Source: Rhodothermales bacterium
Lineage (GTDB): Bacteria > Bacteroidota > Rhodothermia > Rhodothermales > UBA10348
NCBI GenBank assembly: GCA_040221055.1
Contig: JAVJVN010000016.1
Location: forward strand, 1-64,000
DNA: 64,000 nt
Reading direction: 5' to 3'
Under the pieces are notes generated by a model. The model was not told the origin of the DNA. It made no database searches and was given only the letters and a program-made list of their open reading frames with translations. Position 1 is the first letter of the stretch; each line of letters begins with the position of its first letter. A program made the translations under genes and the position numbers. Below are positions 1 through 53,134 of the stretch, piece after piece.

Positions 1-112
1 CCGGTCTGTCTCAAGCCCGAAAGAGGGTCCAGGACGGACGCTGACCCGGCTCTGAGCCACCGGAACGTCCGGGGCGTGGTTCATCACAGACAAATCAGCG
101 ATATTGGACACG

Positions 113-595: not shown

Positions 596-618
596 CGGTC
601 GAAACAAGGATTGGAAGG

Positions 619-723: not shown

Positions 724-733
724 TGGAACCCAA

Positions 734-1042
734 TCAGACAGTAGAAACCGGGCGAATGCGCTTAATTACTTTTGCAGAGGGCGCTCTCATCGCATGCCAA
801 AGATCCCAGTTACGCTGACCATTGAGCCAAAACTCAGGGGAAGTACTAAATAGAGCAGCGAGGCGAAGAGCGGTGTCCGGAGTAACTCCCCTTTTCCCTT
901 TTACAATCTGATTGACGCGCGGATAGGAGACTTCAATCTTTTCAGCCAGCTCTACCTGGGTCATGCCAAGTGGATTGAGGAATTCCTCCAGAAGCATTTC
1001 TCCCGGATGTGTCGGAGGGCGATTGGATGGCAGACGTGTCAT
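734..1042 (-). CDS. higA: HigA-family antitoxin (XRE helix-turn-helix), cassette 7
   Basis: The product has 102 residues from the ATG at 1042. After a short N-terminus it carries HPGEMLLEEFLNPLGMTQVEL and then a helix-turn-helix, AEKIEVSYPRVNQIVKGKRGVT. The C-terminal segment TALRLAALFSTSPEFWLNGQ is diagnostic of the HigA/VapI family. The antitoxin binds and neutralises the toxin encoded just upstream (one base separates the genes) and normally represses the pair by binding the operator over the toxin start. A longer in-frame start at 1150 would overlap the toxin gene and gives a non-family N-terminus, so it was rejected. Toxin-first order is typical of HigBA. Toxin-antitoxin cassettes are common in integrons and are thought to stabilise the array. 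Confidence 0.92.
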   Translation of the reverse strand: MTRLPSNRPPTHPGEMLLEEFLNPLGMTQVELAEKIEVSYPRVNQIVKGKRGVTPDTALRLAALFSTSPEFWLNGQRNWDLWHAMRAPSAKVIKRIRPVSTV

Positions 1043-1043
1043 A

Positions 1044-1337
1044 TCAGTGATAGTCGGTGACCTCAACTTCAGCGGGACCATGATCAGTCCAGATGAAGCA
1101 AACGCGGTATTGGTCGTTGATTCTGATGCTGTGTTGACCGGATCGATCACCTTTGAGCTTTTCGAGACGATTGCCTGGCGGGACTTTAAGGTCCTCGAGA
1201 TACTCGGCCTGGTTCAGTTGGTCCAGTTTGCGAGTGGCAATCCTCCACAACTCAGCCGGACAGACCTTGCTGGCCTGTTTGGAGCGCTTGCCGTCGAAAA
1301 TGTCTTCGGAAGCCTTATTGGCGAAGGATACAATCAT
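1044..1337 (-). CDS. higB: HigB-family toxin (RelE-like mRNA interferase), cassette 7
   Basis: The product has 97 residues and is complete. It shows the HigB/RelE-fold pattern: KLDQLNQAEYLEDLKVPPGNRLEKLKGDR, then the core strand HSIRINDQYRVCFIWTD and a C-terminal EVEVTDYH. Members of this family cut mRNA at the ribosome. It is the first gene of the two-gene cassette. Its start codon overlaps a perfect inverted repeat (1336-1360), so the transcript is likely to be repressed by the HigA partner. The pair is intact and probably functional. Confidence 0.92.
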   Translation of the reverse strand: MIVSFANKASEDIFDGKRSKQASKVCPAELWRIATRKLDQLNQAEYLEDLKVPPGNRLEKLKGDRSGQHSIRINDQYRVCFIWTDHGPAEVEVTDYH

Positions 1338-1360
1338 GTATAACGCATATCGTTATACAT
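1336..1360 (-). promoter_or_regulatory. Palindromic operator at the higB start
   Basis: There are two perfect 10-base arms, ATGTATAACG and CGTTATACAT, separated by CATAT, overlapping the higB start codon. The right arm read on the - strand contains TATAAC, usable as a -10 element. The position fits the autoregulatory site of a HigBA pair; the function is inferred. Confidence 0.7.
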
Positions 1361-1388
1361 GGCACGTTCGCCTAAGAGAAGGGTTCCA

Positions 1389-1496
1389 CATAACGGTTGG
1401 CGGATTTGCGGCGAGCACTCGCTCCCCGTCCAGAAAGTAACTGTTTCAGACCGGCACGCCAGAAATGCGAGCCCGCAAAATGCGCTTGTTAAGTGG
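1389..1496 (-). repeat. attC site of the DUF4365-TPR cassette
   Basis: The + strand ends are CATAACGGTTGGCGGATTTG and GCGCTTGTTAAG. The terminal TTAAG differs from the TTATG of most copies. The stop codon of the DUF4365-TPR gene lies 4 bases from its edge. Confidence 0.9.
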
Positions 1497-1499
1497 AAA

Positions 1500-3416: not shown

Positions 3417-3446
3417 GGCAATTAGTATGTATCAATTCAATTTCCA

Positions 3447-3553
3447 CTTAACGGCTGGCGGATTTGCGGCGAGCTAACGCTCCCCTTCCAGAAAGTAACT
3501 GGCCCCAGACCGGCACGCCAGCACTGCGAGTCCGCAATATGCGCTTGTTATGT
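3447..3553 (-). repeat. attC site of the membrane-protein cassette
   Basis: The + strand ends are TTAACGGCTGGCGGATTTGC and GCGCTTGTTATG, with complementary inner arms GGCGAGC and GCGAGTCCGC. It separates cassettes 5 and 6. Confidence 0.9.
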
Positions 3554-3578
3554 GGACCTCAAAGGTGAAAAGTCTTTC

Positions 3579-4217
3579 TCAGTCGTCCCCGATGCGAGCA
3601 TATCCAGTCACAAGGATCCATGAGACGACGCTGAGAACATTCAACTTCTGGATGGCGGGCATGAACTCGAAGGTCGATCCGGTGAAGTAGAGTGACGCAC
3701 TCAGTACCGAAAGGCCCAGACTCAGCAACCCCCACGTGAAGAGTTTCCAGGCCCTTGCCGTGTACAGAAATAGCACAGTGGTCACAAGCGCCGTCAGGCT
3801 GAAGACCAACCCGATTATGACCATCAAGTCATGCATGGGTGTAGCGACGAAAAAGGCATAGACGGCGGCGCCTATGCCGGCAATCTCGATAATCTTGCGC
3901 AAGGCCGTGTGCGAGGCCTGGTTGGAGATCCATTTGAACGAGAATGCCAAGGAGACGCACCAAAACGCCAGAGCCGCGACTGCAAATGGGCGTCCCGGGT
4001 TCGGCAGTCCGTTGAGCGCCTGAGGAGCGAACAACGCTGAAATGAAGTTGCGCGACCAGCTGTAGCCAACTGATTCGGGTGAGAGGCCCGTCCCACCTGG
4101 ATACAAGGATGATGCTACGGCAAAGAGTGCCAAGCCAACGGCAACTCCATAACACGGAAGAAGGCGGGCTTTCAAATATAGATCTCCGTTGTCAAGGATT
4201 GGTGTTGACGCGAACAA
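3579..4217 (-). CDS. Multi-spanning membrane protein of unknown function, DUF998-like (cassette 5)
   Basis: The product has 212 residues with about six hydrophobic segments (for example LLPCYGVAVGLALFAVASSL, IIEIAGIGAAVYAFFVA, LMVIIGLVFSLTALVTTVLFLY, LFTWGLLSLGLSVLSASLY), so it is an integral inner-membrane protein. The loop SVGYSWSRNFISALF and the segment ATPMHDLM resemble DUF998-type membrane proteins, but the match is weak. The start codon is TTG at 4217, 20 to 25 bases inside the cassette; no in-frame ATG exists near the N-terminus. Function unknown. Confidence 0.7.
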   Translation of the reverse strand: MFASTPILDNGDLYLKARLLPCYGVAVGLALFAVASSLYPGGTGLSPESVGYSWSRNFISALFAPQALNGLPNPGRPFAVAALAFWCVSLAFSFKWISNQASHTALRKIIEIAGIGAAVYAFFVATPMHDLMVIIGLVFSLTALVTTVLFLYTARAWKLFTWGLLSLGLSVLSASLYFTGSTFEFMPAIQKLNVLSVVSWILVTGYARIGDD

Positions 4218-4233
4218 TCAAGAACGAGGTCCG

Positions 4234-4340
4234 CATAACGGCTGGCGGATTTGCGGCGAGCATTCGCTCAGCTGCCAGAAAGTAATCGTTTCAGATCGGC
4301 TTAGCCAGTCGTGCGAGTCCGCAACATGCGCTTGTTATGC
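4234..4340 (-). repeat. attC site of the collagen-like cassette
   Basis: The + strand ends are CATAACGGCTGGCGGATTTG and GCGCTTGTTATG, spaced about 107 bp. The 73 bases between it and the collagen-like gene stop at 4414 show nothing recognisable. Confidence 0.9.
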
Positions 4341-4413
4341 TGCCAAATCAGAAATTTCCACACGAGATACCTCAAACCATCTAGTGGACTGCTATGTCCG
4401 TATTAATCAAATA

Positions 4414-5010
4414 CTATTTTCGATACAGAAAGAGAACTGCCTTGGCGACACGAGCAGGCTGCGATAGTGATTGATTCTGTGCTTTAACAATCACCCTAAG
4501 TGTAATTTCCTTTTCTGGAAGACGATATAGTGGAATGGACGATTCATGTATAGAACTCTCCGTCGAGTTAGTCTGAACGCTGATAATTGATTCACCATCT
4601 GTTGAGTTTACCAGTTCGACGATCGCGGTATTTTCTGGATCCGTTGTATACATCTTAGCTGCAAAGACCACAGAATCCACACCTGGATAATGCGCGATGC
4701 TGAATTTGTAGACCTCATCCACTAGGTTGCCGCTCGTACTACCGCTGATTTTTATCGAGCCATTGCCTCCGTCATAAAGCACAACCCGAATCTGCCTATC
4801 ATAGTCTCCTCGTGGTCCCTCTGGTCCCCGCTCACCTCGTTCTCCGCGTAATCCCCGCTCACCTTGCGGTCCCGCTTCCCCCGTAGATCCCACCGGACCT
4901 TCAGGACCAACCGGTCCGACGGGTCCCGCGCACGCTCCTGCGAAGAAACAAATGACACACAAAGACAAACGGAAGAGAATCAAAGCGATAGTGTTTAGAT
5001 TTGGCTGCAT
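4414..5010 (-). CDS. Collagen-like repeat lipoprotein (cassette 4)
   Basis: The product has 198 residues. The N-terminus is a lipoprotein signal, a hydrophobic stretch ending FFAGAC with Cys at about position 27. About 13 Gly-X-Y triplets follow immediately (GPVGPVGPEGPVGSTGEAGP, then GERGLRGERGERGPEGPRG), so a short collagen-like triple helix is expected at the cell surface. The remaining 130 residues (YDRQIRVVLYDGGNGSIKISG and beyond) look like a beta-rich globular head and match no family I recognise. The start codon ATG (5008-5010) lies inside the GTTATG core of the upstream attC, so the recombination site itself supplies the start of translation. Likely role: a trimeric surface-exposed protein; function unknown. 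Confidence 0.8.
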   Translation of the reverse strand: MQPNLNTIALILFRLSLCVICFFAGACAGPVGPVGPEGPVGSTGEAGPQGERGLRGERGERGPEGPRGDYDRQIRVVLYDGGNGSIKISGSTSGNLVDEVYKFSIAHYPGVDSVVFAAKMYTTDPENTAIVELVNSTDGESIISVQTNSTESSIHESSIPLYRLPEKEITLRVIVKAQNQSLSQPARVAKAVLFLYRK

Positions 5011-5114
5011 AACGGCTGGCGGATTTGCGGCGAGCTGACGCCCACCTACCAGAAATTAACTGGTTTGAGATCAGCACGCACCCAGAGCGAGCCCGCAAAA
5101 TGCGCTTGTTATGC
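5008..5114 (-). repeat. attC site of the HNH cassette
   Basis: The + strand ends are CATAACGGCTGGCGGATTTG and GCGCTTGTTATG. The site is bifunctional: one end carries the start codon of the collagen-like gene and the other contains the TAA stop of the HNH-type gene. Confidence 0.9.
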
Positions 5115-5798
5115 CTCCTGATCTTTCTCTGGGATCCGGTTGATGATATATCCGAGCATATGCACAGTTGAATACAAGGTTATTAAAGCGATTCCGCTGT
5201 CAGGCTCATCATGCACGAACTTCAACCGATATCGAAAAACGTCTCGTCCAACAACCGTTTCTGGGACATCATTGAGGAAAGCGATCGTTCGCTGTAACTC
5301 GAGCAAGATCTGACCATCTCGGTCGTCCACTGAGTCCAGCACAATTACAGATACTTCACAGGAAGCCGGAACTCGTTTGCCTTTCTGTTTGAAATAGAGT
5401 CCCTTGAGTACTCGGGAGAAGACCCGGTTAAGCCTTGACAAATCAGCGTCGAACTTGCCCGTCTTCCCAAGGATCAGTCCAGCAGCAGTCCTCAGCTCAA
5501 CTTCTCGAACGGTCTTGACGAAGGCATTGCGAAAACCGGCTGCCTCGGGACGAGCCAGTGATCGAATTGCTCGGCCAAGCACTTGTTCGACGTCCGGATG
5601 CTCATACACGTCGTAGCGCATAGCCAAGATCAGGCGAACATACTCATCGTCAAGCGATGCATCAGAATTGCAGTCTTCGCAGCAAGGAACCGTGATCAGA
5701 TTATCCGGCAAAGGCTTTGCAAAGAAGCCCTTGGGGGGAACGTGGTCCTTCGTAGTCGCCGGGTTTGGACAGTATGCACATTCTTGAGGCATGGACAT
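5109..5798 (-). CDS. HNH-type zinc-finger endonuclease-like protein (cassette 3)
   Basis: The product has 229 residues. The N-terminal 45 residues carry CAYC, KDHVPPKGFF and then CCEDCN. This is the C-x2-C, D-H, C-x2-C arrangement of HNH endonucleases of the 5-methylcytosine/McrA-like group. The remaining 180 residues are mixed helix and strand, with no family recognised. ATG at 5798 (MSMPQ) or 5792 (MPQECA) are both reasonable; longer in-frame starts run into the attC and were rejected. The stop codon TAA is formed by the ATAAC of its own attC. A nuclease role in defence is plausible but unproven. Confidence 0.75.
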   Translation of the reverse strand: MSMPQECAYCPNPATTKDHVPPKGFFAKPLPDNLITVPCCEDCNSDASLDDEYVRLILAMRYDVYEHPDVEQVLGRAIRSLARPEAAGFRNAFVKTVREVELRTAAGLILGKTGKFDADLSRLNRVFSRVLKGLYFKQKGKRVPASCEVSVIVLDSVDDRDGQILLELQRTIAFLNDVPETVVGRDVFRYRLKFVHDEPDSGIALITLYSTVHMLGYIINRIPEKDQEA

Positions 5799-5805
5799 CA
5801 GGAGG

Positions 5806-6012
5806 CATAACGGCTGGGCAATCTGCGGCGAGCACGCCGACTTTCCGAGAATGTAACTGATCCGGCTGGCAGATGCCCGTTGGTGCTTCATAATGGCACT
5901 TGGGACCGGATTCCAAGACAAAAATACCTCCCTGCCCTCCCAGCCGGGTCAGCCTTCCTCGCCCACGAAACCAGACCGGTGGCCGCGAGCCCGCAGAATT
6001 GCCTTGTTATGT
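5806..6012 (-). repeat. Unusually long, divergent attC site of the DUF1643 cassette
   Basis: The + strand ends are CATAACGGCTGGGCAATCTG and GCCTTGTTATG, about 207 bp apart, twice the length of the other six. The outer arms differ from the other copies but still pair with each other: GGCAATCTGCGG on one side and CCGCAGAATTGCC on the other, so changes in one arm are matched in the other. The central 150 bases show no gene. It contains the TAA stop codon of the DUF1643 gene. Confidence 0.8.
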
Positions 6013-6501
6013 GCCGTATGGAGTCGGTTTCAGACTGTTCTTCAAATAGAGAGGATGAGCGGGCTCACCAGTCACATTAATCTTCAAGCAGGACAATTGA
6101 CCAAGCATGCTTCTTACTTCGACATTTCTCTCCATTTGGGAACCATCGTTTCCCCATGCAGCGACAACAAGATCTGAGTGGTTCTTCGCTTCCTTGATCC
6201 AGTAGTCATTGTCAGGCCCGACTGGATCATGAACCTCGCGCAGTAGGGAGCGATCTGTTGACCTGAATGCGAATAGATTTACAACGACTAGTTTTCCGAA
6301 ACCCCAGGAATCAGCATAGCGAACACACTTGCACAGTGTGCGATCATCGTCGTTTGCGTCCGCCGTCGACGGATTCAGACAAATGAATGCTACTGATTTC
6401 GAGTTTGGCTTCCAGGCTCGAAACAGCGAATACCGATAAGTCCCGCATTCGGATAAAACCGCCGATTTCTCTAGGTATGGCTCCATATCTGAAATAGGCA
6501 C
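6007..6501 (-). CDS. DUF1643 family protein (cassette 2)
   Basis: The product has 164 residues covering a complete DUF1643 domain: YRYSLFRAWKP, then VAFICLNPSTADANDDDRTLCKCVRYADSWGFGKLVVVNLFAFRST, then AAWGNDG. The LNPSTAD and GFGKLVVVNLFAFR blocks are the family hallmarks. DUF1643 proteins are frequent integron and phage passengers whose function is unknown. Translation starts at a GTG touching the GTTATG core of the upstream attC (an in-frame ATG five codons in is an alternative), and the TAA stop lies within the downstream attC. The gene therefore fills the cassette almost exactly. Confidence 0.88.
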   Translation of the reverse strand: MPISDMEPYLEKSAVLSECGTYRYSLFRAWKPNSKSVAFICLNPSTADANDDDRTLCKCVRYADSWGFGKLVVVNLFAFRSTDRSLLREVHDPVGPDNDYWIKEAKNHSDLVVAAWGNDGSQMERNVEVRSMLGQLSCLKINVTGEPAHPLYLKNSLKPTPYGT

Positions 6502-6605
6502 ATAACGGCTGGCGGATTTGCGGCGAGCTAATGCCCACCTGCCAGAAAGTAATCGTTTCAGATCAGCAAAACAGAAAGGCGAGTCCGCAACATGCGCTTG
6601 TTATG
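6501..6605 (-). repeat. attC site of the first cassette
   Basis: The + strand ends are CATAACGGCTGGCGGATTTG and GCGCTTGTTATG, spaced about 105 bp with complementary inner arms. It closes the attI-proximal cassette. Confidence 0.9.
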
Positions 6606-6614
6606 CAACCGGAA

Positions 6615-7592
6615 TCAGAAGGTAAAACCAACGAGGCGACCTTCGGGAATATCATCCTCGGCAATTAGCAATCTTGAACAGCCAGCCTCATAATCGAATG
6701 CCCACAATGAATTCTTGTGCTCTCCCCACCTCAAATACAACACATACCCTGGCGGGCCAAATGTAGCGTGACTCCTGAGAGTATCTGAGGACTCGAATTG
6801 ACCCAATATGTCACCATTTGTGTCAATGACGTAGATCCCCGCTGATTCCGCCGGGCCTGACGATCCCGTTGACAAAGCTGTGGCGCCAGAATCCAAATCG
6901 AAGTCTACATCGATAATGCGTCCATAAGGCGCGCCAGTTGCTTGCCGCGACCAAAACTGTCCTCGATCTGGGGCGAACAGAGAATCCGTTTCAATGTCAT
7001 ACCAGTAGGTCATTCCCCTTGACGTGATCACGACTTTGGATCCTTCAATGATACCGCGAGCCCACCCATCGAACGCATTGACCACCTCACCGGCATCGAC
7101 ATTCCAGACTGATACCCGACCACCAGACACGTTTACGCTTGAACTGACATAAACAAGATGTTCACTTTGCTCTACCACAAACGTGGCAACAGGATTAACA
7201 GGCAGTTCTGGCAGGTTGATAGGCTCAGAAAATGAGTTGTTGAGATGGCTGAATAGCTTTAGGATGGTCGACTCCGTATTCCCGATGATCAACTTAGATC
7301 TATCGGAATTGAATCGAGCACTCAAGGTGATCGAAGGATCAACCGGCAATTGATCCAACGCTGTGGGGTTATTGAATGGAGCCGAATATGCACGGTGAAG
7401 TCCATCTGTACCCCAAACAACCAGCACCACTTTGGACGAATCGTCCTCAAATGGTGAATAATCGCCTTGAGGATTTTCTATCTCTGTCTCATCCGGCTCA
7501 TTTGGTCCGCCCATTGAATTGGTGTCGCAACCAACGAAAACGAATACAGCCACAAGAAAGACGAGCCACTTCGCTGAATGAATCCTGTTCAT
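6615..7592 (-). CDS. Lipoprotein with beta-propeller-like repeats (cassette 1)
   Basis: The product has 325 residues. The signal sequence WLVFLVAVFVFVGC ends in a lipobox with Cys at about position 22, so it should be a lipid-anchored envelope protein. An acidic linker (PNEPDETEIENPQGDYSPFEDD) precedes a body of repeated strands such as SITLSARFNSDRSKLIIGN, SEHLVYVSSS and GGRVSVWNVDAGEVVNAFDG, resembling WD40/YVTN propeller blades. It is the first cassette after attI and should be the best expressed. A nine-codon reading frame starting in the attI core ends 7 bases before its ATG. Function unknown. Confidence 0.75.
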   Translation of the reverse strand: MNRIHSAKWLVFLVAVFVFVGCDTNSMGGPNEPDETEIENPQGDYSPFEDDSSKVVLVVWGTDGLHRAYSAPFNNPTALDQLPVDPSITLSARFNSDRSKLIIGNTESTILKLFSHLNNSFSEPINLPELPVNPVATFVVEQSEHLVYVSSSVNVSGGRVSVWNVDAGEVVNAFDGWARGIIEGSKVVITSRGMTYWYDIETDSLFAPDRGQFWSRQATGAPYGRIIDVDFDLDSGATALSTGSSGPAESAGIYVIDTNGDILGQFESSDTLRSHATFGPPGYVLYLRWGEHKNSLWAFDYEAGCSRLLIAEDDIPEGRLVGFTF

Positions 7593-7599
7593 GGTAACT

Positions 7600-7629
7600 C
7601 TAGGACAGACTTGAAAATTCCGGTTGCAT
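7600..7629 (-). other. Mini reading frame starting in the attI core
   Basis: An ATG inside the GTTATGC recombination core opens a nine-codon frame (MQPEFSSLS) that ends with TAG 7 bases before the first cassette gene. The arrangement resembles the short leader frames in class 1 attI sites that help ribosomes load on cassette genes. The role here is inferred. Confidence 0.4.
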
Positions 7630-7690
7630 AACTAATCTTTTATGGATCTCCCGAATCAATGTGGGTGCGCATAGCAGCAGGAGCCATTTC
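7626..7690 (-). other. attI recombination site
   Basis: A single GTTATGC core (7626-7632, - strand) joins the first cassette to non-cassette DNA on the intI side. Unlike the attC sites it has no partner arm. The crossover is expected just after the G of GTTATGC. The outer boundary of attI is not visible from sequence and is given only approximately. Confidence 0.7.
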
Positions 7691-7696
7691 GTGATA

Positions 7697-7725
7697 AGTA
7701 TAAGCGCATCATGCAGTTGGAGCAA
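7697..7725 (-). promoter_or_regulatory. Candidate cassette promoter Pc
   Basis: On the - strand TTGCTC (7720-7725) and TATACT (7697-7702) are exactly 17 bases apart, close to the sigma-70 consensus. The pair lies between intI and attI and points into the array. This is where the common promoter of a chromosomal integron is expected. Confidence 0.55.
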
Positions 7726-7861
7726 GGGGTTTCTGTAAAGGACGCGGGGGTTGGCGGCGTAGGACGATTCCTGATAGGACCATTCCACATAGGCCGCGAA
7801 CCTGGGGAAAGGGTATGTTCGGGTCCAGCTGGTGTCATTTCAGCTCATCAGGGAGCGGATA

Positions 7862-8857
7862 ATGGGATCCAATAGTGTATTGGTTCGGGGTCGGAGAATC
7901 GCCCGCACACGCGGAACGTTGCAGGCCATGTTCCATACAGCCTGCAGGCGTCGGGGTCTGGCAGCGACAACGGAGCGCCTGTATTTCCAATGGGTGCGGC
8001 GGTACGTCCGTTTCAATGGCCTGACGCATCCGCAGGATCTGGAGGCAGACAATGTCCGGGAGTTCCTGTCATGGCTGGCAACCGACCGGGAAGTGGCCGC
8101 ATCTACCCAGAATCAGGCGCTTAATGCGCTGGTTTTCCTCTACAGGGAAGTCCTGCGGGTCGACCTGGAAGAGTTCGACTCGTTCGTGCGAGCCAAACGG
8201 CACCGCCATCTGCCGGTTGTGCTCACGCAACTGGAGGCGCGCCTGCTCATGGGTTTCCTCACGGGCACAGCGGGGCTGGTGGCGCGGTTGCTTTATGGGT
8301 CGGGGCTCCGCGTATCCGAAGGGGTGCAATTGCGGGTAAAGGACATCGATTTCGATGGACGGATGTTGCATCTGGTCCACACGAAAAGTGGAAAAGGGCG
8401 CAAAACGCTGCTTCCGGAGCGGCTGGTCGCGCCGCTTCACACCCATTTGAGACGGGTTCGTCAAATCCACTCGCAGGACTTGGTTCAGGGGCATGGACGT
8501 GCTCCATTACCGCGTGCGTTCGCCCGGAAGTCGTCTTCGGCTGCCACGTCCTGGTCCTGGCAGTATGTGTTTCCGAGCGTACGGAGGTCCGAGGAGGACG
8601 GGTGCCGGTATCATGTATCGCAGAGTTCCGTCCAGAAAATGGTCCGGAAGGCGGCTCGCGCTGCAGGGCTGACGAAGCGGGTGAGCTGCCATACGCTTCG
8701 GCACAGTTTTGCGACGCATTTGCTCGAGTCGGGCTACGATATCCGGACCGTCCAGGAGTTATTGGGTCACGCAGATGTACGCACAACAATGATCTATACG
8801 CACGTTCTCGGCCGTGGGCACCACATTCGCAGTCCGCTGGACTGGGAGGGGCGCTGA
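7862..8857 (+). CDS. intI: Integron integrase IntI
   Basis: A tyrosine recombinase of 331 residues that inserts and excises cassettes at attI and attC. All catalytic residues are present: Arg150 (YGSGLRVSE), Lys175 (TKSGKGRK), His277 and Arg280 (CHTLRHSFATHLLE), His303 (LLGHADVRTT) and Tyr312 (IYTHVL). The IntI-specific insert before the C-terminal motif is also present (WQYVFPSVRRSEEDGCRYHVSQSSVQ). The ATG at 7862 has GGGAG six bases upstream and places the active-site residues at positions very close to those of class 1 integrases. A GTG at 7832 would add ten residues. No frameshift or premature stop is seen, so the array should still be able to rearrange. Confidence 0.96.
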   Translation: MGSNSVLVRGRRIARTRGTLQAMFHTACRRRGLAATTERLYFQWVRRYVRFNGLTHPQDLEADNVREFLSWLATDREVAASTQNQALNALVFLYREVLRVDLEEFDSFVRAKRHRHLPVVLTQLEARLLMGFLTGTAGLVARLLYGSGLRVSEGVQLRVKDIDFDGRMLHLVHTKSGKGRKTLLPERLVAPLHTHLRRVRQIHSQDLVQGHGRAPLPRAFARKSSSAATSWSWQYVFPSVRRSEEDGCRYHVSQSSVQKMVRKAARAAGLTKRVSCHTLRHSFATHLLESGYDIRTVQELLGHADVRTTMIYTHVLGRGHHIRSPLDWEGR

Positions 8858-41797: not shown

Positions 41798-44700
41798 ATG
41801 ACCGATACATCGAACCGGAAACGATCCGGCCCGCTGCTTCTTTTTTTCGCCCTGTTCACCGTCATCGTGATCGTGCTGTTGGGTTGGTTGGCCATGAACG
41901 CCACCCGTCCGGACGAGTACGTCGAGCCGGCCAAGAGCGATGCCATCCGGTTCATGGAGATGCAGGCCCTCATCCGCTCGGTCGAAGGCGAACCCACGGA
42001 CGCCTATCCGCAGACCTACAAATTCGATGCGCTGGACGCCTCCCGGGCGGTCGCCAAACAGGGGGCTACGATCCTGCCCTGGTCTGAACGGGGACCGTCC
42101 AACGTGGGCGGCCGCACGCGCGCCATCGTGGTGGATGCCAACGACCCCACGAACCGGACCTGGTTCGCCGGCGCGGTGAGTGGCGGAATCTGGCGCACCA
42201 CGGACCAGGGCCAGTCCTGGACACCGCTCACGGAGGATTGGCCCACGTTGTCGGTGACGGCCATCGTGCAGGCCCCGTCCCGACCGGACGTGCTGTACGC
42301 GGGCACCGGAGAGGGTTTCTTCAATGTCGGGGCCGTCGTCGGGGATGGCTTGTTCCAATCCACGGACGGTGGGGACACGTGGAGCCCCATGTGGTCCACG
42401 CGGGGCAATCCGTTGTTCAAATACGTGAACCGGATGATCGTGCATCCTGAATTCCACTCGGTGCTGGTGGTCGCCACGAACACGGGCGTCTACCGGACCG
42501 AGGATGGAGGCGCCACGTGGAAGGCCGTTCTCGAACCGGGTGGGAGGATGGCCCAGATCGGCCATGAACCGGGAAATTTTTACACCCAGTACGCCTCCGA
42601 GACGGGGCGGGGCATCTGGAAATCCACCGACGGCGGCTCGACATGGGCCTTTTCGGGTGCCGGAATGACGGTACCGAACGGAAGCCGTGTGGAGTTCGGG
42701 ATCTCACCCGTCTTGCCCGGCCGCATCATCGCCATGGTGGATGTACGCAGCGGCCTGGAGGAGATCTACATTTCGGACAATCGGGCCAGCCACTGGGTCC
42801 TGGTTCCGTCGACCGCCGCCAATCCGCCGGACATCGGTGCCGACCAGGCCTGGTACGACATGGTGGTCACGCCTCATCCCTACGACGCCAACGTGGTTTT
42901 CGTAGGGGGCGTTCAGATGTACCGGCTGACGCTGAACGGTTCGCAATCCACGCTGGCCGCCTCGACCCGGGAAATCGGCACCGACTTCTTCCTGGACTTC
43001 ATTGACTTCGGCGCGGAATACTTGCGGGGCGGCCTGCGACTGGGGATTGACGACGATGAGGCCAACATTACGCCGGAACAGATGACCTCCGTGGAAATCC
43101 GGTTCGGGCCGGGCATTTCCCAGCGGGCCCACCGGTTCACACCACCCGACGGCCCGGGAATTGCGTTCGTCGACTACCCCTATGCCGATTTTGTGGACGT
43201 ACCGTTCCAGGTCTGGGACACGCAGAACAACCGGCAACTCCACGTCTCCTTCCGGGACCGGCTCGGCGACGGCGTATTCGATCTGACGCCGGACGACGCG
43301 AGCAACCTGGGAAGGGAATACATCCTCATTCACGCGTTCCCCTACGGCGCCGGAACGGCGCACTCCAGCATCGCCCAGAACGGTGGCGTCCGGAATGGCC
43401 TCATGTATTTCCTGTGGCCCATCCTGGCCCCCGAGGCGCTGTGGCAACCCGACAACCTGCCCTCATCCACCCTCCACATTGATCTCGTCCAAGCCACGGC
43501 CCCGGCCACCTGGACGTCCACCATCATCGGAACGGGCGTCCACGTGGACCACCACGCTCTTGTGCCCGTGCCCTTCGACCCACAGGCCGGTACCTTCGGG
43601 CTCATTTCGGGCAACGACGGTGGCGTGTTCTGGTCGGGCAGCGGGGGACAATCCTGGGTGGACCGCAGCCGGGGATACAACACCACCCAGTTCTACGGCG
43701 TGGATCGCCGTCCGGGCGCGAACATCTACATCGGCGGCATGCAGGACAACGGTACCTACCGCTCTTTCCAGCCGTTCGGGACCGATATTCCCGGTTGGAC
43801 GCCGGCGGCCATCGGGGGAGACGGGTTCGATGCCGTCTGGCATCAGTCCGACCCCAACCGCCTGCTTGGCGGCTCCCAGTTCAACGGCCTGCGCCGGTCC
43901 GTGGACGGCGGGTTGACGTGGTCCAACGCCACGACGGGCCTGCTGGACACCGGCGGATCCAATGCCAATGCGCCCTTCCTGAACTCCATTGAGCGCAGCC
44001 CCTTCAACTCGGACACCTTGTTTGCCATAGGCGGCTCGGGCGTGTGGTTGAGCCCCAATTTCGGTCAATCCTGGCAACTCCGTCCCGCCCTGGCCGATCG
44101 TTGGGCCTTCCAGAGCAACGCCCGGGGCACCGTCCGGCCGTCCCTGGCCTCGCCGCGCGTAATCTGGGCCGGCTACGAGATGGACCCCTTCGACAACGGT
44201 GGCGATGACATCGTGGGACAACTCCACGTATCGACCAATGCCGGTGCGACGTTCCGGCCCGTCCCGACGCCCTCCATTTCCCCGGGATACCTGTCCGGCC
44301 TGGCGACGCATCCCACCCAGGACAGCACGGCGTTCGCCCTGTTTTCGTCCTCGGGCCGCGCCAAGATCCTGCGGACCACAGACCTCGGAGAGACCTGGAC
44401 CGACCTCTCCGGCTTCTCGGACGGCCCCTCGGGCACCTTGTCCGTGCGCGGCTTCCCGGATGTGGCCGTGCATGACCTCGTGGTCCTTCCGGGTGCCACC
44501 GAAGTGCTCTGGGTGGGCACGGAAATCGGACTGTTTGTTTCGGAAGACGACGGCGAGAGCTGGTCGTTCGCCAACAACGGGCTGCCGGCCGTCTCCATCT
44601 GGAGGATGCGCGTCGTCGGCGACGAAGTCGTCCTCGCGACGCATGGCCGGGGGGTCTGGACGGTTCCCCTGAACGCGGCAATCGCCACCGCCGCCGAGCC

Positions 44701-44980
44701 GACCGATGCGCTCCCCACGACCACGACGCTCGGAAGCGCGTATCCCAACCCGTTCCGGGCGCAGTTGGCCATCCCGTATGAACTGGACGGAGCCGGCCGC
44801 GTGCGCATGGACATCTACGACCTGCAGGGCCGGCGCGTGGCTACGCTGGTGGACGGGGAGCAACCGGTCGGCCGCCATGTGGCCCTGTGGCAAGCCGACG
44901 CGGCCGCAGCCGGGACGTACGTCATCCGGCTCAGCGCAGACGGCCACACCTCCACGCGGACCGTCGTCCGCCTGAACTGA
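41798..44980 (+). CDS. Large secreted BNR/sortilin-type repeat protein with T9SS sorting domain
   Basis: The product has 1060 residues. An N-terminal hydrophobic helix (PLLLFFALFTVIVIVLLGWLAM) is followed by repeated Asp-box motifs of the BNR/sortilin beta-propeller: TTDQGQSWTPL, STDGGDTWSPM, TEDGGATWKAV, STDGGSTWAFS, SVDGGLTWSNA, TTDLGETWTDL and SEDDGESWSFA. An inserted region near 400-500 (DFLDFIDFGAEYLRGGLRLGIDDDE and beyond) is not propeller-like. The last 85 residues are a type IX secretion sorting domain (GSAYPNPFRAQLAIPYEL ... GTYVIRLSADG), so the protein should be exported and attached to the surface. No enzymatic site was recognised. Confidence 0.9.
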   Translation: MTDTSNRKRSGPLLLFFALFTVIVIVLLGWLAMNATRPDEYVEPAKSDAIRFMEMQALIRSVEGEPTDAYPQTYKFDALDASRAVAKQGATILPWSERGPSNVGGRTRAIVVDANDPTNRTWFAGAVSGGIWRTTDQGQSWTPLTEDWPTLSVTAIVQAPSRPDVLYAGTGEGFFNVGAVVGDGLFQSTDGGDTWSPMWSTRGNPLFKYVNRMIVHPEFHSVLVVATNTGVYRTEDGGATWKAVLEPGGRMAQIGHEPGNFYTQYASETGRGIWKSTDGGSTWAFSGAGMTVPNGSRVEFGISPVLPGRIIAMVDVRSGLEEIYISDNRASHWVLVPSTAANPPDIGADQAWYDMVVTPHPYDANVVFVGGVQMYRLTLNGSQSTLAASTREIGTDFFLDFIDFGAEYLRGGLRLGIDDDEANITPEQMTSVEIRFGPGISQRAHRFTPPDGPGIAFVDYPYADFVDVPFQVWDTQNNRQLHVSFRDRLGDGVFDLTPDDASNLGREYILIHAFPYGAGTAHSSIAQNGGVRNGLMYFLWPILAPEALWQPDNLPSSTLHIDLVQATAPATWTSTIIGTGVHVDHHALVPVPFDPQAGTFGLISGNDGGVFWSGSGGQSWVDRSRGYNTTQFYGVDRRPGANIYIGGMQDNGTYRSFQPFGTDIPGWTPAAIGGDGFDAVWHQSDPNRLLGGSQFNGLRRSVDGGLTWSNATTGLLDTGGSNANAPFLNSIERSPFNSDTLFAIGGSGVWLSPNFGQSWQLRPALADRWAFQSNARGTVRPSLASPRVIWAGYEMDPFDNGGDDIVGQLHVSTNAGATFRPVPTPSISPGYLSGLATHPTQDSTAFALFSSSGRAKILRTTDLGETWTDLSGFSDGPSGTLSVRGFPDVAVHDLVVLPGATEVLWVGTEIGLFVSEDDGESWSFANNGLPAVSIWRMRVVGDEVVLATHGRGVWTVPLNAAIATAAEPTDALPTTTTLGSAYPNPFRAQLAIPYELDGAGRVRMDIYDLQGRRVATLVDGEQPVGRHVALWQADAAAAGTYVIRLSADGHTSTRTVVRLN

Positions 44981-46992: not shown

Positions 46993-47562
46993 GTGAACCC
47001 ACGCATCTCCCCATCCTGCCTGGCGCTCCTCCTGGCGCTCCTCTGTGCGGCTTCCGCGCCGACCGGCGTCCGGGCCCAGAACGGCCAGGCCGTCAGCGTG
47101 GGTGTCTCGCCCATCCTCGTCATGAGTGTATCGGGCAACCCCATGCTCCAGATCGTGGACCGGACCCAGCGGAAGGGACGGGTCACCCTCGTGGATCCGA
47201 CCACCTTCTACAACCTCACGTCCAACGTGGACAATGTCCGCCTGGAAGCCGCCATCGATATGCCCCTGCCCCCCGGCGTCCAACTGGAAGTCCGGCTGCA
47301 GTCGTCCCTGGGCCAGAGCCTCGGCTGGGTGCCGCTGACCTCCGCTTCGACGGTCCTGTCCGGCATGCAGCGCGGCCTGGAAAACGGGCAGGCCATCACT
47401 TACCGCCTGGTCATCGACCCCCATGTGGACGAACTCCCGCTCCAGTTCCGGCGCGTAGCCTTCTCGCTGGTATCGGAGCGCTCGTCGCAGCCCTTCACCG
47501 TGGTGCAGGACTTCGGCTTCGGCGTCCTTCCGGACGCCCGTAAACCGGACTCCGGACGGTAG
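46993..47562 (+). CDS. Secreted protein of unknown function
   Basis: The product has 189 residues with a clear signal peptide (LALLLALLCAASAPTGVRAQ). The rest is beta-rich: SVGVSPILVMSVSGNPMLQIVD, RKGRVTLVDPTTFYNLTSNVDNVRLEAAIDM, then VAFSLVSERSSQP. Its end (xVAFSLVSE) recalls that of the secreted protein at 52416 (HTVTFTLTE). No known family. It follows the CBM gene by 16 bases and converges on the sigma factor gene, from which 3 bases separate it. Confidence 0.6.
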   Translation: MNPRISPSCLALLLALLCAASAPTGVRAQNGQAVSVGVSPILVMSVSGNPMLQIVDRTQRKGRVTLVDPTTFYNLTSNVDNVRLEAAIDMPLPPGVQLEVRLQSSLGQSLGWVPLTSASTVLSGMQRGLENGQAITYRLVIDPHVDELPLQFRRVAFSLVSERSSQPFTVVQDFGFGVLPDARKPDSGR

Positions 47563-47565
47563 CGG

Positions 47566-48330
47566 TCAGGCCGCGTAGCGCAGGGTCGGTTCGAGTGCCT
47601 GCTCCAGCACATCCAATGAGCGGCGACGGATCTGTGACACGCGGGCCTCGGTAATGCCCAGCAGCGCTCCGATTTCCGTCTGCGTCAGCCCTTCGTTGAA
47701 GTACAACTCCAGGATGGTCCGCTCCCGCTCTGACAGCCGGGCCTGTGCCTGCTCCAGGTGCGCACGGACATCCGACCACTCGTACACGGCGTAGCCCTCC
47801 TGGCCCGACGGATCCGGAACCAATTCCAGCAAGCGGCACTCCTCGTCGTCCTGCGCATCCAGGGAAATCCCGTGACGACGCCAGGCGTCGTGTCGGATGC
47901 CATCCAACTGATCGATGGAAATGCCCATGGACGCGGCCACCGGTGCCATGCCGGGCTCATCGCCCAGACGCTGTGCAAGCAGGTCTTCCGCATGCCGTGC
48001 AGCGGCCACTTTCGCGCGCCGTCGGCGTGGCAGCGGGTCCAACCGCCGCAGATGGTCCACGATCTCGCCACGGATGCGTGCATAGGCATAGGTCACGAAC
48101 CGCGTTCCCGTGGTCGGATCGAACTGATCGAGCGCCTGCAACGTGGCAATCACGCCCACCTGTACCAATTCGGAAGCTTGCGCCAGCACGTCGGACGGCA
48201 GGGGCAGTTTGGCGATGATGGATCGGATGACGGGCTCCATGGCCGCGACGACGCGGTCCCGGTGGGCCTGGACGGGCTCGGCCACGAAGGCGAGCGCGCA
48301 TTCTTCAATGGAAAGGGGGGCGGTTTGCAT
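47566..48330 (-). CDS. Sigma-28-type (FliA/WhiG-like) sigma factor
   Basis: The product has 254 residues from the ATG at 48330 (a second ATG at 48375 would add 15). The region 2 core reads LVQVGVIATLQALDQFDPTTGTRFVTYAYARIRGEIVDHLRRLDP, a region 3 helix follows (VAASMGISIDQLDGI), and the C-terminal region 4 is RERTILELYFNEGLTQTEIGALLGITEARVSQIRRRSLD. The pattern is that of the FliA/WhiG/SigB group. No flagellar gene is nearby. It may direct the adjacent secreted/usher-like genes, but no matching promoters were identified. Confidence 0.9.
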   Translation of the reverse strand: MQTAPLSIEECALAFVAEPVQAHRDRVVAAMEPVIRSIIAKLPLPSDVLAQASELVQVGVIATLQALDQFDPTTGTRFVTYAYARIRGEIVDHLRRLDPLPRRRRAKVAAARHAEDLLAQRLGDEPGMAPVAASMGISIDQLDGIRHDAWRRHGISLDAQDDEECRLLELVPDPSGQEGYAVYEWSDVRAHLEQAQARLSERERTILELYFNEGLTQTEIGALLGITEARVSQIRRRSLDVLEQALEPTLRYAA

Positions 48331-48567
48331 GGCGGTACTGCGGTTTGCGTGATGCGTGCAGTCCATCCATTTCAAACACGGTGCCTGATCGGCCTGGAAG
48401 TGGCCAAATCGCCCTTATTCGCCTTTTCAGGGTCCTTTCTTCGGGATGATGCGTCCTGGGGGCACCCGAAGGTGTTTCGCTATCGAAACAATCCCGGTCC
48501 GCCAGCGGGTCGATCCACATCCGATGCGCCGCAAGCAGACCCGTGCGGGGTCAAACTTCGCCGGAGC

Positions 48568-51549
48568 TTACGGCAATTCGGGGATGCGCAGGACCTGGCC
48601 GACGCGCAGGAAGTCCGGGGCCGGCACGACCTGCCGGTTGGCCTCCCAGATCCGCTGCCACTGAAGCCGGTCGCCGTAATACCGCTCGGCGAGTGTCGAC
48701 AGGCTCTCACCTGCCACGACCACATGGGTCCGCCCGACATCTGCTCCTGCATCCTCCTCAGCCTCTCCGTCCGCACCCGGCCGCACCAGGGAAATCGGCG
48801 TACCGGTCTCCACGAAGCGGATGGCTCGGCGGCGAGGCTGCAGCTGAAGCGCGGATTCCGACCGCCCACCCGGCTCCAGGGTGATGGCCAGGGTATCGGG
48901 GCGCGTCACGTACCCGTCCGGGAGTGTGGACGCCACGACGCGCACCGACCAGGGTCCGGGCACCAGTTCCGAAAACACCGCCACCCCGGTCCGGTCCGTG
49001 ACGCGCCTCACGCGGCGCTCGGAGGACGCCGCCTCCACCACCATGCCCGACAGATCCTCCTGCGACAGGCGTCCGCCGAGCGCCGCATCCTGCCCGGCAC
49101 GGGCATCGGCCGGCAACAGGACGGGGACGGTCAGCCGCGCGGATCGCACGACGGCCACGTCCAGCACACCGGTCTCGAACATGGCGGCGTCCACGCGGAG
49201 CGGAAACTCCATGACGGGGGTCCGCTCCAGTCCGATGGTCTGTCGGTCGAGCAGGATCCAACTGGCCTCGCCAGCGGGCAATGCCAGGACGGTCCGCCCG
49301 TCCGCATCGGTGCGCACGGTGGATTCCGCGACGGTCAGCGCCACGCCCTCCAGCGGTTCGCCCGACTCCGCATCGAACACATAGACATTCAACTCCCGAC
49401 GGGACGCGGTATGGGACCATGGCGCCGGGACATTGAGCGGGACGCGGTAGGCCACCTGGACGACGCCGTTCTGCACGACTTGACCGAATTGCGTCCGCGT
49501 GTAGCGGCCTCGCACTTCCAGTTGGTGCCCTGCCCACAGATCCCGCTCCACCCACGCATCGGCCATCAGGAACTGCTGTTCAATACCCGATCGCTCCCGG
49601 CTCACGTGCAGGGACGTGGAAAACCGGGTCGCGGCGCCGCGATCGTAGGACAGGCTCGAGCCCAAGCTCGTACGGCTGCGGGTAATGGGGCTGTAGAAGG
49701 TGGGGCCGGACGAAACGGACGTCGTTACACTGAGCGTCCACGGCCCCCATCCGCGGAACGCCGACCCGTACGCGGTCCAGAAGGGATCCATTTCGAGGGC
49801 CAGGTCCTCGGCCCGTCCCGCCTGGATCGTGGCGGTGGCCCCCGCCCGACGCTGGTTGTAACCCAACTGGAGTTCGCCCCGCCGCTCCGTCCGGTCCAGA
49901 CCCGACGCAGTGAATTGCCGGGCCTGCTGCTGGCCGTACACCATGGCCCGGAACTGACGGCCGTCGGTACTCCAGGTGCCGCCCACACCCCCGCGCACCG
50001 AAGACGTGGAGAGCACGGCCGGATCGGGCGAGCCCACATCAAAGAACCGGCGTTGCATCTGGCCCTGGAACTGCGCCCGGAACCATCCCGCCGACGTGAA
50101 GGAGAAGCCCCCTTGCACCCGCTCGGTGTTCTGGATGCCTCCCAGGAAATTGGCCCCGGCCTTCTCGGCCCGCAGGCTGAAGGTGGAACGCCCCACCGAC
50201 CCCAGGGCCGACACCTGTGCCGCCTGGTCCCGACCGGCATCGTACGAACCGCTGGCGGCCTCCGCCCGGATGGTCGTCCCGTCGACGGGTCGCCAGTCCA
50301 GGGCCAGGGAGAGCGCATCGCCCTCCTCGAACTGCCGTCGGGACAACACATTGGCCTCCAGGGTCACGCGCGACATGGGCCGGAAATGAAGGAATCCCCC
50401 GGCGCGGTCGGCCACCGGAAATACATGGCGTCCGCGCGCCGCGAACACGCCCGTGTCCCACCGGAGGGTGGACCAGGTTACCTCGGCGCCCGTCCCGATG
50501 GACGAGTTGTCCAGCAGGTCGGTGGTGGTATACGCGGCATCGCCCAAGCGCACGCCCAGCCGGGGCCCTTGGATGGAGGCCGAAAAAACGTCCCGTTCGC
50601 CCACCGTGGACGAGGAACGCACGTCCGGGACCCGGACGAGGGCACTCACGACGGCGCGTCCTACCGGCGCTTCCGGCAACGCGAGCTCGATCTGACCGTG
50701 GGTCGACCCGCCGTCCCACGCCCCGCGCGTGGTCAGATAGAGGGGAAGCATGCCTTCCCGTTCCACGGGACGGCTCCGCCGCACGGGCACAATGGTGGTC
50801 GAGGCACTGGCGCGGGCCACCCGTTCCGTGCCGGCCACCTGCACCTGTACCGACGTGACATGGGTGACTTCGTTGACCAGGTCGTCCCGCGAGCGCACCT
50901 CGACGTCGAGCCGCTTGCGCTCACCCGGGGCCAGGGGAAAGGAGGGCGCGGAAACCGACACGCCGTAGGAGAGGGTACTGGTGGCCGAGGCCGACACGAG
51001 GATGGCCGTGTTTCCGGTATTCTCCACGGCAAATGTGCCCTCCCACACGCCACCGGCGCGGATCCGCTCGGGCGCATCGATGAACGCCACCGAGATCGCG
51101 GCTTCGGCGGCCACGCGCACGGTCAGGGAGTGGCTCGGCGCACCTGCCTGCGCATCGGCCGGATCTTCTGCCACAGGGGTGAACGCCACGGTCCAGTCCC
51201 CGCTCAGGGCGTTGCCCGGTATCTGTATGGACACGAGTTGGGTGGCTGCCCCCCCGGCTTCCACGCGGACGCTTGAGAGTGGGATGAGCAGGCTCCACCC
51301 GTCGGGCAGCTCCGGCGAAAGGCGGACGGTCCTGTCCCGGGGGCCCTCGTTCACCAAACGGAGCAGGACACTGGCGACGCGTCCGGCCGCGGTTTCGATC
51401 TCCAACCGGCTTTCCACGCGGAGGTCTCCTCCGGACGGGGGCACCTGACGGGCCAGCGACGACTGCGGACCGACCACGAGGCACGCGACGAGCACGACCC
51501 ATGCAGCCAAGGCCGCACGGAACATCAGCGGGCGCCCGGGCAGGGTCAC
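48568..51549 (-). CDS. Large outer-membrane-like protein with Ig domains, barrel-like region and LysM domain (usher-like)
   Basis: The product has 993 residues. After a signal peptide (AALAAWVVLVACLVVGPQSSLA) come two Ig-like domains (about 40-140 and 150-260). A region of about 450 residues (270-720) follows, with alternating hydrophobic/polar residues and many aromatic strand ends (RGELQLGYNQRRAGATATI; HQLEVRGRYTRTQFGQVVQNG), as in an outer-membrane barrel. Then come two CarboxypepD-regulatory-like beta sandwiches (RRELNVYVFDAESGEPLEGVAL; LTVPVLLPADA) and a C-terminal LysM domain (THVVVAGESLSTLAERYYGD). It is not a canonical fimbrial usher, but its size and order and the PapD-like gene just upstream suggest an assembly platform. 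A GTG start overlaps the upstream stop codon (GTGA). Confidence 0.65.
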   Translation of the reverse strand: MTLPGRPLMFRAALAAWVVLVACLVVGPQSSLARQVPPSGGDLRVESRLEIETAAGRVASVLLRLVNEGPRDRTVRLSPELPDGWSLLIPLSSVRVEAGGAATQLVSIQIPGNALSGDWTVAFTPVAEDPADAQAGAPSHSLTVRVAAEAAISVAFIDAPERIRAGGVWEGTFAVENTGNTAILVSASATSTLSYGVSVSAPSFPLAPGERKRLDVEVRSRDDLVNEVTHVTSVQVQVAGTERVARASASTTIVPVRRSRPVEREGMLPLYLTTRGAWDGGSTHGQIELALPEAPVGRAVVSALVRVPDVRSSSTVGERDVFSASIQGPRLGVRLGDAAYTTTDLLDNSSIGTGAEVTWSTLRWDTGVFAARGRHVFPVADRAGGFLHFRPMSRVTLEANVLSRRQFEEGDALSLALDWRPVDGTTIRAEAASGSYDAGRDQAAQVSALGSVGRSTFSLRAEKAGANFLGGIQNTERVQGGFSFTSAGWFRAQFQGQMQRRFFDVGSPDPAVLSTSSVRGGVGGTWSTDGRQFRAMVYGQQQARQFTASGLDRTERRGELQLGYNQRRAGATATIQAGRAEDLALEMDPFWTAYGSAFRGWGPWTLSVTTSVSSGPTFYSPITRSRTSLGSSLSYDRGAATRFSTSLHVSRERSGIEQQFLMADAWVERDLWAGHQLEVRGRYTRTQFGQVVQNGVVQVAYRVPLNVPAPWSHTASRRELNVYVFDAESGEPLEGVALTVAESTVRTDADGRTVLALPAGEASWILLDRQTIGLERTPVMEFPLRVDAAMFETGVLDVAVVRSARLTVPVLLPADARAGQDAALGGRLSQEDLSGMVVEAASSERRVRRVTDRTGVAVFSELVPGPWSVRVVASTLPDGYVTRPDTLAITLEPGGRSESALQLQPRRRAIRFVETGTPISLVRPGADGEAEEDAGADVGRTHVVVAGESLSTLAERYYGDRLQWQRIWEANRQVVPAPDFLRVGQVLRIPELP

Positions 51550-52406
51550 AACGTCAATTCAAATTGGCCGCCGAACACGGCATCGTCCCCGGCATCCACG
51601 ATCAGAATGGCCTGGTAGGCACCGGCCGGCACGTCCACCAGCTCCAGGCGCTGCCGGACGGACGTGCCCGGATACATGCGGTAGAGCGTGCCGTTGAAGG
51701 GCCCGAATTCGGCGCCCTCGGCATTGAACAGTCGGAGATAGACTTCCGGGCGGATCATCCGCGAGCCGGTATTGACGATATCCGCCTGGAACACCGTACG
51801 GCCGTCTTCGCCGGCCACGAGCGTCACACCGCTGAATTCCACATTGGCCTCGGCCCGGGATTCATCCACATGCGTGGCAAGCTGCACTCCGTACCGGGTG
51901 ACCTGGCGGAACCCCATTTCCCGCTCGGCCGGAGGATCGTCACCCAGGGTGGATTCGGCCGAGGAGGGATCGATGGATTCCACCATGAGCATGCTCCAGT
52001 AGGTCCCGGGCCCGGCCGATGCGGGGACCGCCACTTCGTAGGAGACGGTCACGTTGCCGTTCGGAGGGATGGTCATGGTTTCGGGGGAATACGTAATCCA
52101 GCGCGCATTGGAGCGCTCCAGGAGTCCCGGCTCGCCGTACTCGTTCGTGCCGTCCGAAAAGAAGCGGTAGTCAGTCTGGTAGATGCGTGCCTGTTGGACC
52201 TCGGAAGTCTCGTTGTCCACGATGATCTGGCCGGTCACCGGTTGGCCGGGCGTGGCCGGAATGTCATGCGCCAACCGCCCCCGGACCGTGATCTGGGCCC
52301 CGGCATCCACCGGCCACACGAGCAGGACGACGAGCAGGACCATCAGGAGAACGGCCTGCAGGATGGTCGGAGACAGGGACCGCGGCAGGGAAATCTGTCG
52401 GGACAT
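51546..52406 (-). CDS. PapD-like periplasmic Ig-fold protein (putative chaperone)
   Basis: The product has 286 residues. A long hydrophobic N-terminus (ILQAVLLMVLLVVLLVWPVDAGA) serves as signal or anchor. The body is two Ig-type beta domains: TVRGRLAHDIPATPGQPVTGQIIVDNETSEVQQARIYQTDYRFFSDG, IPPNGNVTVSYEVAVPASAGPGTYWSMLMVE, then VTLVAGEDGRTVFQADIVNTGSRMIRPEVYLRLFN and PAGAYQAILIVDAGDDAVFGGQFELTL. The plan resembles fimbrial chaperones (NxG and PAGxYxAxLIVD elements), but the classical PapD signature residues are not clear. It is coupled to the large usher-like gene and 9 bases from the secreted subunit-like gene upstream. Confidence 0.6.
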   Translation of the reverse strand: MSRQISLPRSLSPTILQAVLLMVLLVVLLVWPVDAGAQITVRGRLAHDIPATPGQPVTGQIIVDNETSEVQQARIYQTDYRFFSDGTNEYGEPGLLERSNARWITYSPETMTIPPNGNVTVSYEVAVPASAGPGTYWSMLMVESIDPSSAESTLGDDPPAEREMGFRQVTRYGVQLATHVDESRAEANVEFSGVTLVAGEDGRTVFQADIVNTGSRMIRPEVYLRLFNAEGAEFGPFNGTLYRMYPGTSVRQRLELVDVPAGAYQAILIVDAGDDAVFGGQFELTL

Positions 52407-52415
52407 CGGAAAAGC

Positions 52416-52883
52416 CTACTGTTCGGTCAACGTGAACGTAACGGTGTGATAGTCGGAGCCGCCCATGGAGGTGGAGCCCTCGTCCAACCGGGCTTCCGCA
52501 ATGTACCGGATATCGGCTTTTCCTGCGCCTTTTGACTTGATGTTTCTGATAAGATCGGTGTCCATCATTCCGTGGCGCAGTTCGACCCGGCCCGTGGCCT
52601 GGCCGCGCGTCACGTTGCGGGCCTCGATCGAGAGGGACACCTGCTGGCCGGGGGCGAAGGTGTTCACGGTAATCTTCGAGCGTTCACGGACCTGATTCCA
52701 GAACAGGCTGCTGGACTCATCCTGGGCCGATGCCGTGCCGTCGCCATACAGCGTGGGCTCAATGTGCAGCTGGACCGTGCCGGGTCCCAGCAGCGAGAGC
52801 CGCTGGGCCTGCACGTCCGGGGCGAAGGCCAGCAGAGCCGACAGCAGCAGCATCAGGGCGGATATGTGGATTCGGGTAGACAT
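52416..52883 (-). CDS. Secreted beta-rich protein, possible structural subunit
   Basis: The product has 155 residues with a signal peptide ([20 protein letters not shown]). The mature part starts [17 protein letters not shown], has [45 protein letters not shown] and ends [11 protein letters not shown], a single beta-sandwich pattern. It is the first gene of the operon before the PapD-like and usher-like genes, so it could be their substrate. The start was placed at [10 protein letters not shown] because longer in-frame sequence upstream is not signal-like. No family recognised. Confidence 0.55.
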
Positions 52884-52921
52884 GATGTGCTTCACACTTC
52901 TGCAAGAAGCGTGCCATCGGA

Positions 52922-53134
52922 TCAAAGCCACCATCGGGGGCGGATTCCATCGGTCGTCGACGGATCTTCGGCGTCCGGTCCGGCCATCAGGGTGATGGAG
53001 CAGGTGGGCCGGACTTGGGCCGGGACGATCGGGCCTGCAGGAACGCCGAAATCGGCCAACAGGCTCAACGAACGGTATTCCGGCCGACGCTCCGTGATGG
53101 CGTAAAGGCTGCGGTACGTGATTTGGGCAGTCAT
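52922..53134 (-). CDS. Small hypothetical protein, 70 residues
   Basis: The frame uses high-GC third positions like the surrounding genes and starts with ATG at 53134 ([21 protein letters not shown]). The product has no signal or membrane segment and ends GIRPRWWL. It is upstream of, and co-oriented with, the secreted subunit gene. It is plausible as a gene but has no recognised family; it may be a chance frame. Confidence 0.4.

Follow-up and report, generated by a model that had tools for sequence, protein, structure and literature searches.

We identified, in a genome of 3.32 Mb in 22 contigs, to which Rhodothermales/Bacteroidota metagenome-assembled genomes are the closest named relatives, a minus-strand operon that, together with a secreted protein encoded on the opposite strand (P0004), probably represents a chaperone-usher-like pathway lying outside all the family models searched. 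Pili of the chaperone-usher type, known mostly from Proteobacteria, are assembled by a textbook pathway. The gene set observed here supports the existence of a type of operon, so far without annotation and shared across phyla, that works like such a system, and secretion, donor-strand exchange and the formation of a fibre would all be part of it. The DNA analysed (hereafter the window) is a stretch of 64,000 nucleotides, of which an earlier sequence-only reading had proposed that the cluster mirrors the plan of chaperone-usher systems while no part of it clearly matches the classical families. Both proposals agree with our results, namely a predicted barrel protein with usher-like domain order, for which FimD was the first whole-chain structural match, and the lack of matches to those families in Pfam, NCBIfam and profile searches.

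All the reading frames claimed for the window were found on the strand indicated, and they form two convergent transcription units. The minus-strand unit comprises, in this order, a conserved, cytoplasmic-looking ORF of 70 aa (52922..53134), which is the first gene of the unit in type I clusters; P0003 (52416..52883), a secreted protein of 154 aa that we consider the chaperone-proximal subunit; P0002 (51546..52406), a 286-aa protein with a signal peptide and two Ig-like domains, proposed as a periplasmic chaperone of WxLIP/PapD fold; P0001 (48568..51549), a 993-aa usher-like protein predicted to reside in the outer membrane; and a sigma factor of the FliA/WhiG type (47566..48375). The successive gaps are of 38, 9, −4 and 192 bp: the P0002 gene starts 9 bp past that of P0003, the P0001 gene overlaps the P0002 gene by 4 bp, and a gap of 192 bp separates the sigma gene, which, as had been claimed, follows the gene of the large protein. 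The plus-strand genes converging on this unit encode a Sortilin/VPS10-BNR repeat protein with a T9SS C-terminal sorting domain identified by Pfam (41798..44980), a protein with four CBM2 (cellulose-binding) domains (PF00553, 6e-46) and a T9SS C-terminal sorting domain (PF18962; 45096..46976), and P0004 (46993..47562), a secreted subunit of 189 aa whose gene begins 16 bp past the end of the CBM2/T9SS gene. The VPS10/BNR and CBM2 genes are conserved neighbours, their order being kept in related clusters; the CBM2/T9SS protein, with its four cellulose-binding domains, might act at the surface as a partner of the assembly system.

To evaluate how widely the gene set occurs, public genomes (one per GTDB species) were scanned by using the P0002-family alignment as the sole seed, so that the neighbouring genes provide independent evidence. 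The scan found 48 loci, distributed over roughly twelve major groups of bacteria; a P0001 relative lay within 600 bp downstream of the P0002 relative in 47 of them, and one to seven small secreted subunit relatives were present upstream in 42 of the 44 loci with enough upstream sequence. The gene order described in the sequence-only reading (small protein, two-Ig protein, large protein), for which a search in other genomes had been suggested, therefore recurs far beyond chance. P0001 used as a single query against genome contigs gave no match, and it was the two-Ig alignment that succeeded instead. According to the record titles, the loci belong to Bacteroidota, Ignavibacteria, KSB1, Zixibacteria, Troglogloeales, Thiocapsa, Thiococcus, Deltaproteobacteria, Myxococcota, Armatimonadetes, Verrucomicrobia, Bipolaricaulota and Ozemobacter. 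The P0002 family was matched in 38 of 394 sampled Bacteroidota genomes, in some of them weakly, and is rare in Pseudomonadota, with weak matches in 8/397 besides the seed; these latter, and partial matches elsewhere in Bacteroidota, are left out of the member counts. The divergences of chaperone and barrel proteins are correlated (Spearman 0.56, reached in 0 of 999 permutations), with a certainty that is overstated by the kinship of the sequences.

Closer to the window, the whole neighbourhood is kept in the same order in six related genomes, and P0004 orthologs are present in 6/6 of the related clusters. The window's own genome has a single copy of the P0002 family. A second, paralogous version of the cluster, found in the same family, encodes a T9SS-sorted protein, at least one subunit and P0003-like, P0002-like and P0001-like proteins, with no adjoining sigma gene. 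In many loci outside Bacteroidota, the P0002 gene is separated from the subunits by one further small gene, which encodes a secreted protein of a diverged type of subunit, and an Armatimonadetes locus (L086, 1122-5505) carries seven tandem subunit genes followed by the chaperone and barrel genes. Deinococcus plasmids also carry the gene set, with a compact version on Deinococcus deserti VCD115 plasmid 2 (L137, 5396-9783). In this species the annotation of the four neighbouring genes goes no further than hypothetical protein, FimB/Mfa2 subunit, carboxypeptidase-like and hypothetical protein, and the name given to the chaperone gene, FimB/Mfa2 family fimbrial subunit, looks like a misannotation. 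A search of open-licence papers found no description of the system.

As for the single components, Pfam assigned to P0001 a NEW3-like Ig domain, a CarboxypepD_reg domain and a LysM, with no other match in Pfam or NCBIfam, and a PDB sequence search with its profile returned only matches of the C-terminal sandwich/NOMO and NEW3 types. The AF2 model, obtained with 45 sequences (pLDDT 87), has a pTM of 0.56, which makes the domain placement uncertain. From N to C terminus it shows two Ig domains, a barrel, two small TTR/CarboxypepD-like sandwiches, a low-confidence linker and the LysM; hence, the domains listed in the sequence-only reading were all recovered, the second Ig domain, the second sandwich and the barrel by the model. 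It had been asked, moreover, whether the barrel has 24 strands and a plug. The ushers FimD and PapC have a plug domain inserted in the barrel, which in classical ushers consists of 24 strands. The model of P0001 predicts a barrel, but one of 26 strands (mature residues 234 to 675) with no inserted domain, no inter-strand gap exceeding about 14 residues; the shortest full-length relatives (838-844 aa) leave no room for a plug. In this P0001 differs from FimD and PapC, and the usher reading does not explain how the pore would be gated, which counts against it. Nevertheless, in whole-chain Foldseek searches FimD was the first match (E 2.6e-13), with PapC among the next.

The model of P0002, built on an alignment of 37 sequences, contains two Ig-like sandwiches (pLDDT 95), and its best PDB fold matches were WxLIP of Enterococcus faecium (Z 17.4 and 16.5), followed by CfaA (Z 13.3) and then by FimC, CsuC, CupB2 and Caf1M (about 12). 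When the profile of the mature P0002 family was compared with WxLIP by hhalign, the score was 95% over 221 columns, covering both domains, while 20 column-shuffled WxLIP profiles gave 0-0.5%; on these profiles and on the model, P0002 is judged homologous to WxLIP over both domains. PF06030 was matched by 12 of the 37 members (best 9e-5), the P0002 of the window itself falling below the Pfam threshold. Against PapD-type chaperones the mature family scored 1.7%, and no sequence relation was found by this comparison; an initial score of 26% was an effect of the signal peptide and dropped to that value after its removal. The description of this protein as PapD-like is right for the chaperone fold (Z 12-13 to FimC, CsuC and CfaA), but by sequence and fold the protein is a relative of WxLIP rather than of PapD. 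A PDB sequence search with the P0002 profile returned nothing useful, and P0002, P0003 and P0004 matched no family in Pfam, NCBIfam or PHROGs. The P0002 chain stops with the final strand of its second Ig domain, without a C-terminal transmembrane helix, and QVTRYGVQLATH is a candidate G1-like strand. In a control search the WxLIP model PF06030 also matched Thermotoga maritima; this bacterium has an outer sheath, and the match is possibly another link of WxLIP to diderm envelopes.

An iterated HMM placed P0003 and P0004 in one family with the tandem subunits of the other loci (alignment A4). The sequence-only reading had noticed that the protein starting at 46993 (P0004) is a second secreted protein with a similar end: it does belong to the same profile family, but the pairwise identity is 14% and its C terminus is extended. 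The residues between the signal core and the common anchor have a median of 28.5 in chaperone-distal subunits versus 14 in proximal ones (Mann-Whitney p 2e-8, a certainty overstated because related sequences are not independent). The distal subunits, P0004 included, thus have about 14 extra N-terminal residues with alternating hydrophobic pattern, e.g. QTVTFEVTAINE, and P0003 has no such extension; further proximal subunits, which the HMM family does not include, also start without it. In known chaperone-usher systems, the chaperone strand gives way to an N-terminal extension of the subunit that comes in (PMC4654587). An extension found only in distal subunits is the pattern expected of donor strands, P0003 then being the starter, and we propose that P0003 may be the initiating or tip subunit and P0004 the polymerising one. 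A subunit-pilin profile score of 36% derived from the signal peptide alone and was discarded.

Taken together, the locus shares with chaperone-usher systems (FimC/FimD, Csu, CFA/I) an operon of subunit, chaperone and outer membrane barrel genes, a two-Ig chaperone, a barrel between N- and C-terminal beta-sandwich domains, and subunits with an alternating N-terminal extension, one of them lacking it. By contrast, it shows no match to PF00577, PapD or pilin families, its usher-like barrel consists of 26 strands and lacks an inserted plug, the chaperone is WxLIP-related, the proximal subunit is single-domain, the type I barrel protein has a terminal LysM, and the hosts include many non-proteobacterial phyla. 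The PF00577 usher model had no match in P0001, in the window's genome or in any of 23 carrier genomes, the E. coli control being positive. Given the absence of both PF00577 and the plug, the locus should not be counted in the classical or archaic chaperone-usher family. Instead of forming a lineage of its own, it could belong to the alternative (class 5/ECP/CFA-I) family as a strongly diverged branch, as CfaA is the best chaperone match after WxLIP and some members give weak matches to CooC_C or TcfC; we regard this as improbable, in view of the plugless P0001 and of the hhalign scores of 0.6% with EcpB and 2.7% with EcpC, which are a weak test because the known pair PapD-EcpB also gives only 0.7%.

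The relation of P0002 to WxLIP suggests a different explanation, i.e. a WxL system of diderm type, in which P0002 would be a WxLIP-like scaffold holding P0003 and P0004, as Ig-like surface proteins, on the envelope, with P0001 as an anchor or exporter in the outer membrane and no donor-strand polymer. To our knowledge, the WxL/WxLIP surface system occurs only in Gram-positive bacteria, and we know of no demonstration of polymer chaperoning by their WxLIP relatives. In the clusters of Firmicutes (DUF916-DUF3324), as here, the subunit (WxL) genes precede that of WxLIP, and two WxL proteins with one WxLIP are the typical set (PMC10599100). On the other hand, no Pfam WxL match was obtained in 49 subunits, the hhalign score between the subunit family and WxL was 1.1%, and P0002 has no equivalent of the C-terminal transmembrane helix of WxLIP (PMC10599100); thus, despite the homology of P0002, the locus is not a WxL system. 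Furthermore, our hosts are diderm and have an outer-membrane barrel partner, for which the WxL clusters examined contain no gene, and a polymer is suggested by the tandem subunits, up to seven in number, with their donor-like extensions. A diderm WxL version is therefore rather unlikely, though of the alternatives it is the one to which we give most weight. As for the barrel, VIA-align placed MtrB first (Z 21.7, rmsd 4.3, 408 residues, 9% identity), whereas FimD (Z 16.2) and PapC scored 15-16, level with several other large barrels, which in general reach a Z of about 15 with P0001. P0001 shares with MtrB, a 26-strand outer-membrane barrel, both size and geometry of the barrel, which in P0001 has no plug, and could be an MtrB/PioB-like porin-scaffold for another complex, the Ig proteins being accessory structural proteins. 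This seems very improbable: P0001 has additional Ig, TTR and LysM domains, the terminal Ig/TTR domains and the first rank of FimD in the whole-chain search fit an usher, the gene is constantly linked to a chaperone-fold gene and small subunits, and no predicted gene with at least three CxxCH motifs, i.e. no multihaem cytochrome, was found in any fetched locus. Since the barrel is nearest to MtrB and its scores with FimD and PapC are level with those of other large barrels, the usher reading draws on domain order, whole-chain match and gene context, not on the barrel alone.

In the chaperone-usher-like pathway that we favour, P0003 and P0004 would be exported to the periplasm by their predicted signal peptides, where P0002, given its modelled fold, could bind each subunit by lending a beta strand. 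The N-terminal Ig domains of P0001 would take the chaperone-subunit complexes and the subunits would cross the 26-strand barrel, while the C-terminal sandwiches may act like the CTDs of ushers and the LysM, in this clade, may tie the platform to peptidoglycan. In donor-strand exchange, as the pattern of the extensions suggests, a P0004-type extension would complete the preceding subunit, and P0003, having none, would start the chain. The product might be a surface fibre or coat, perhaps, and more speculatively, with the T9SS-secreted cellulose-binding neighbour.

Whether these loci amount to a fourth chaperone-usher-like lineage, spread over a dozen or so phyla, with a chaperone that shares WxLIP ancestry and an usher that is a plugless 26-strand barrel, is in our opinion evenly balanced. 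If so, this lineage would tie the donor-strand surface assembly of diderms to the WxL surface complexes of monoderms, and the link to WxLIP points to a way in which chaperone-like pairs of Ig domains and the WxL surface complexes could have a common origin. A parallel pathway of this kind would supply a surface organelle so far lacking from the picture of Bacteroidota, Ignavibacteria, Zixibacteria, Armatimonadota, Deinococcota, purple sulfur bacteria and others, in which its genes are currently named 'hypothetical' or wrongly, and a plugless 26-strand usher would raise a new question of gating.

The sigma factor contains regions 2, 3 and 4 and, like FliA/WhiG sigma factors, matches TIGR02479 as best family (E 8e-47), with a score of 159.8 that is below the curated 189.6; it differs from them in being linked to the P0001 cluster and not to flagella. 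Its gene follows that of P0001 in 7/7 orthologous clusters (the window and six related), and FliP is absent from the window's genome. The sequence-only reading had considered it the cluster's own sigma factor, and this synteny suggests that it probably controls the cluster, but no promoter was found: within the window there was no sigma-28 consensus, and scans for sigma-70 promoters and terminators performed no better than chance. The 70-aa ORF, which heads the operon, might encode a regulator of this sigma factor. With the ORF of the window and its L035 ortholog as queries, tblastn located it upstream of the subunit gene in three other genomes, each represented by two overlapping loci (L034/L053, L035/L052 and L036/L054), and the relatives show the pattern YKSLYAITE...QCPI...WVL.

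At the other end of the window, positions 1-8857 are a chromosomal integron, with an integrase on the plus strand at 7832-8857 (TIGR02249, 379.9 bits versus a cut-off of 265) and seven attC-like direct repeats at 613, 1384, 3442, 4229, 5003, 5801 and 6496, having a core of 33 nt and a length of up to about 110 nt. Its GC content is about 0.50 versus 0.65 elsewhere, and most of the cassette ORFs are on the minus strand.
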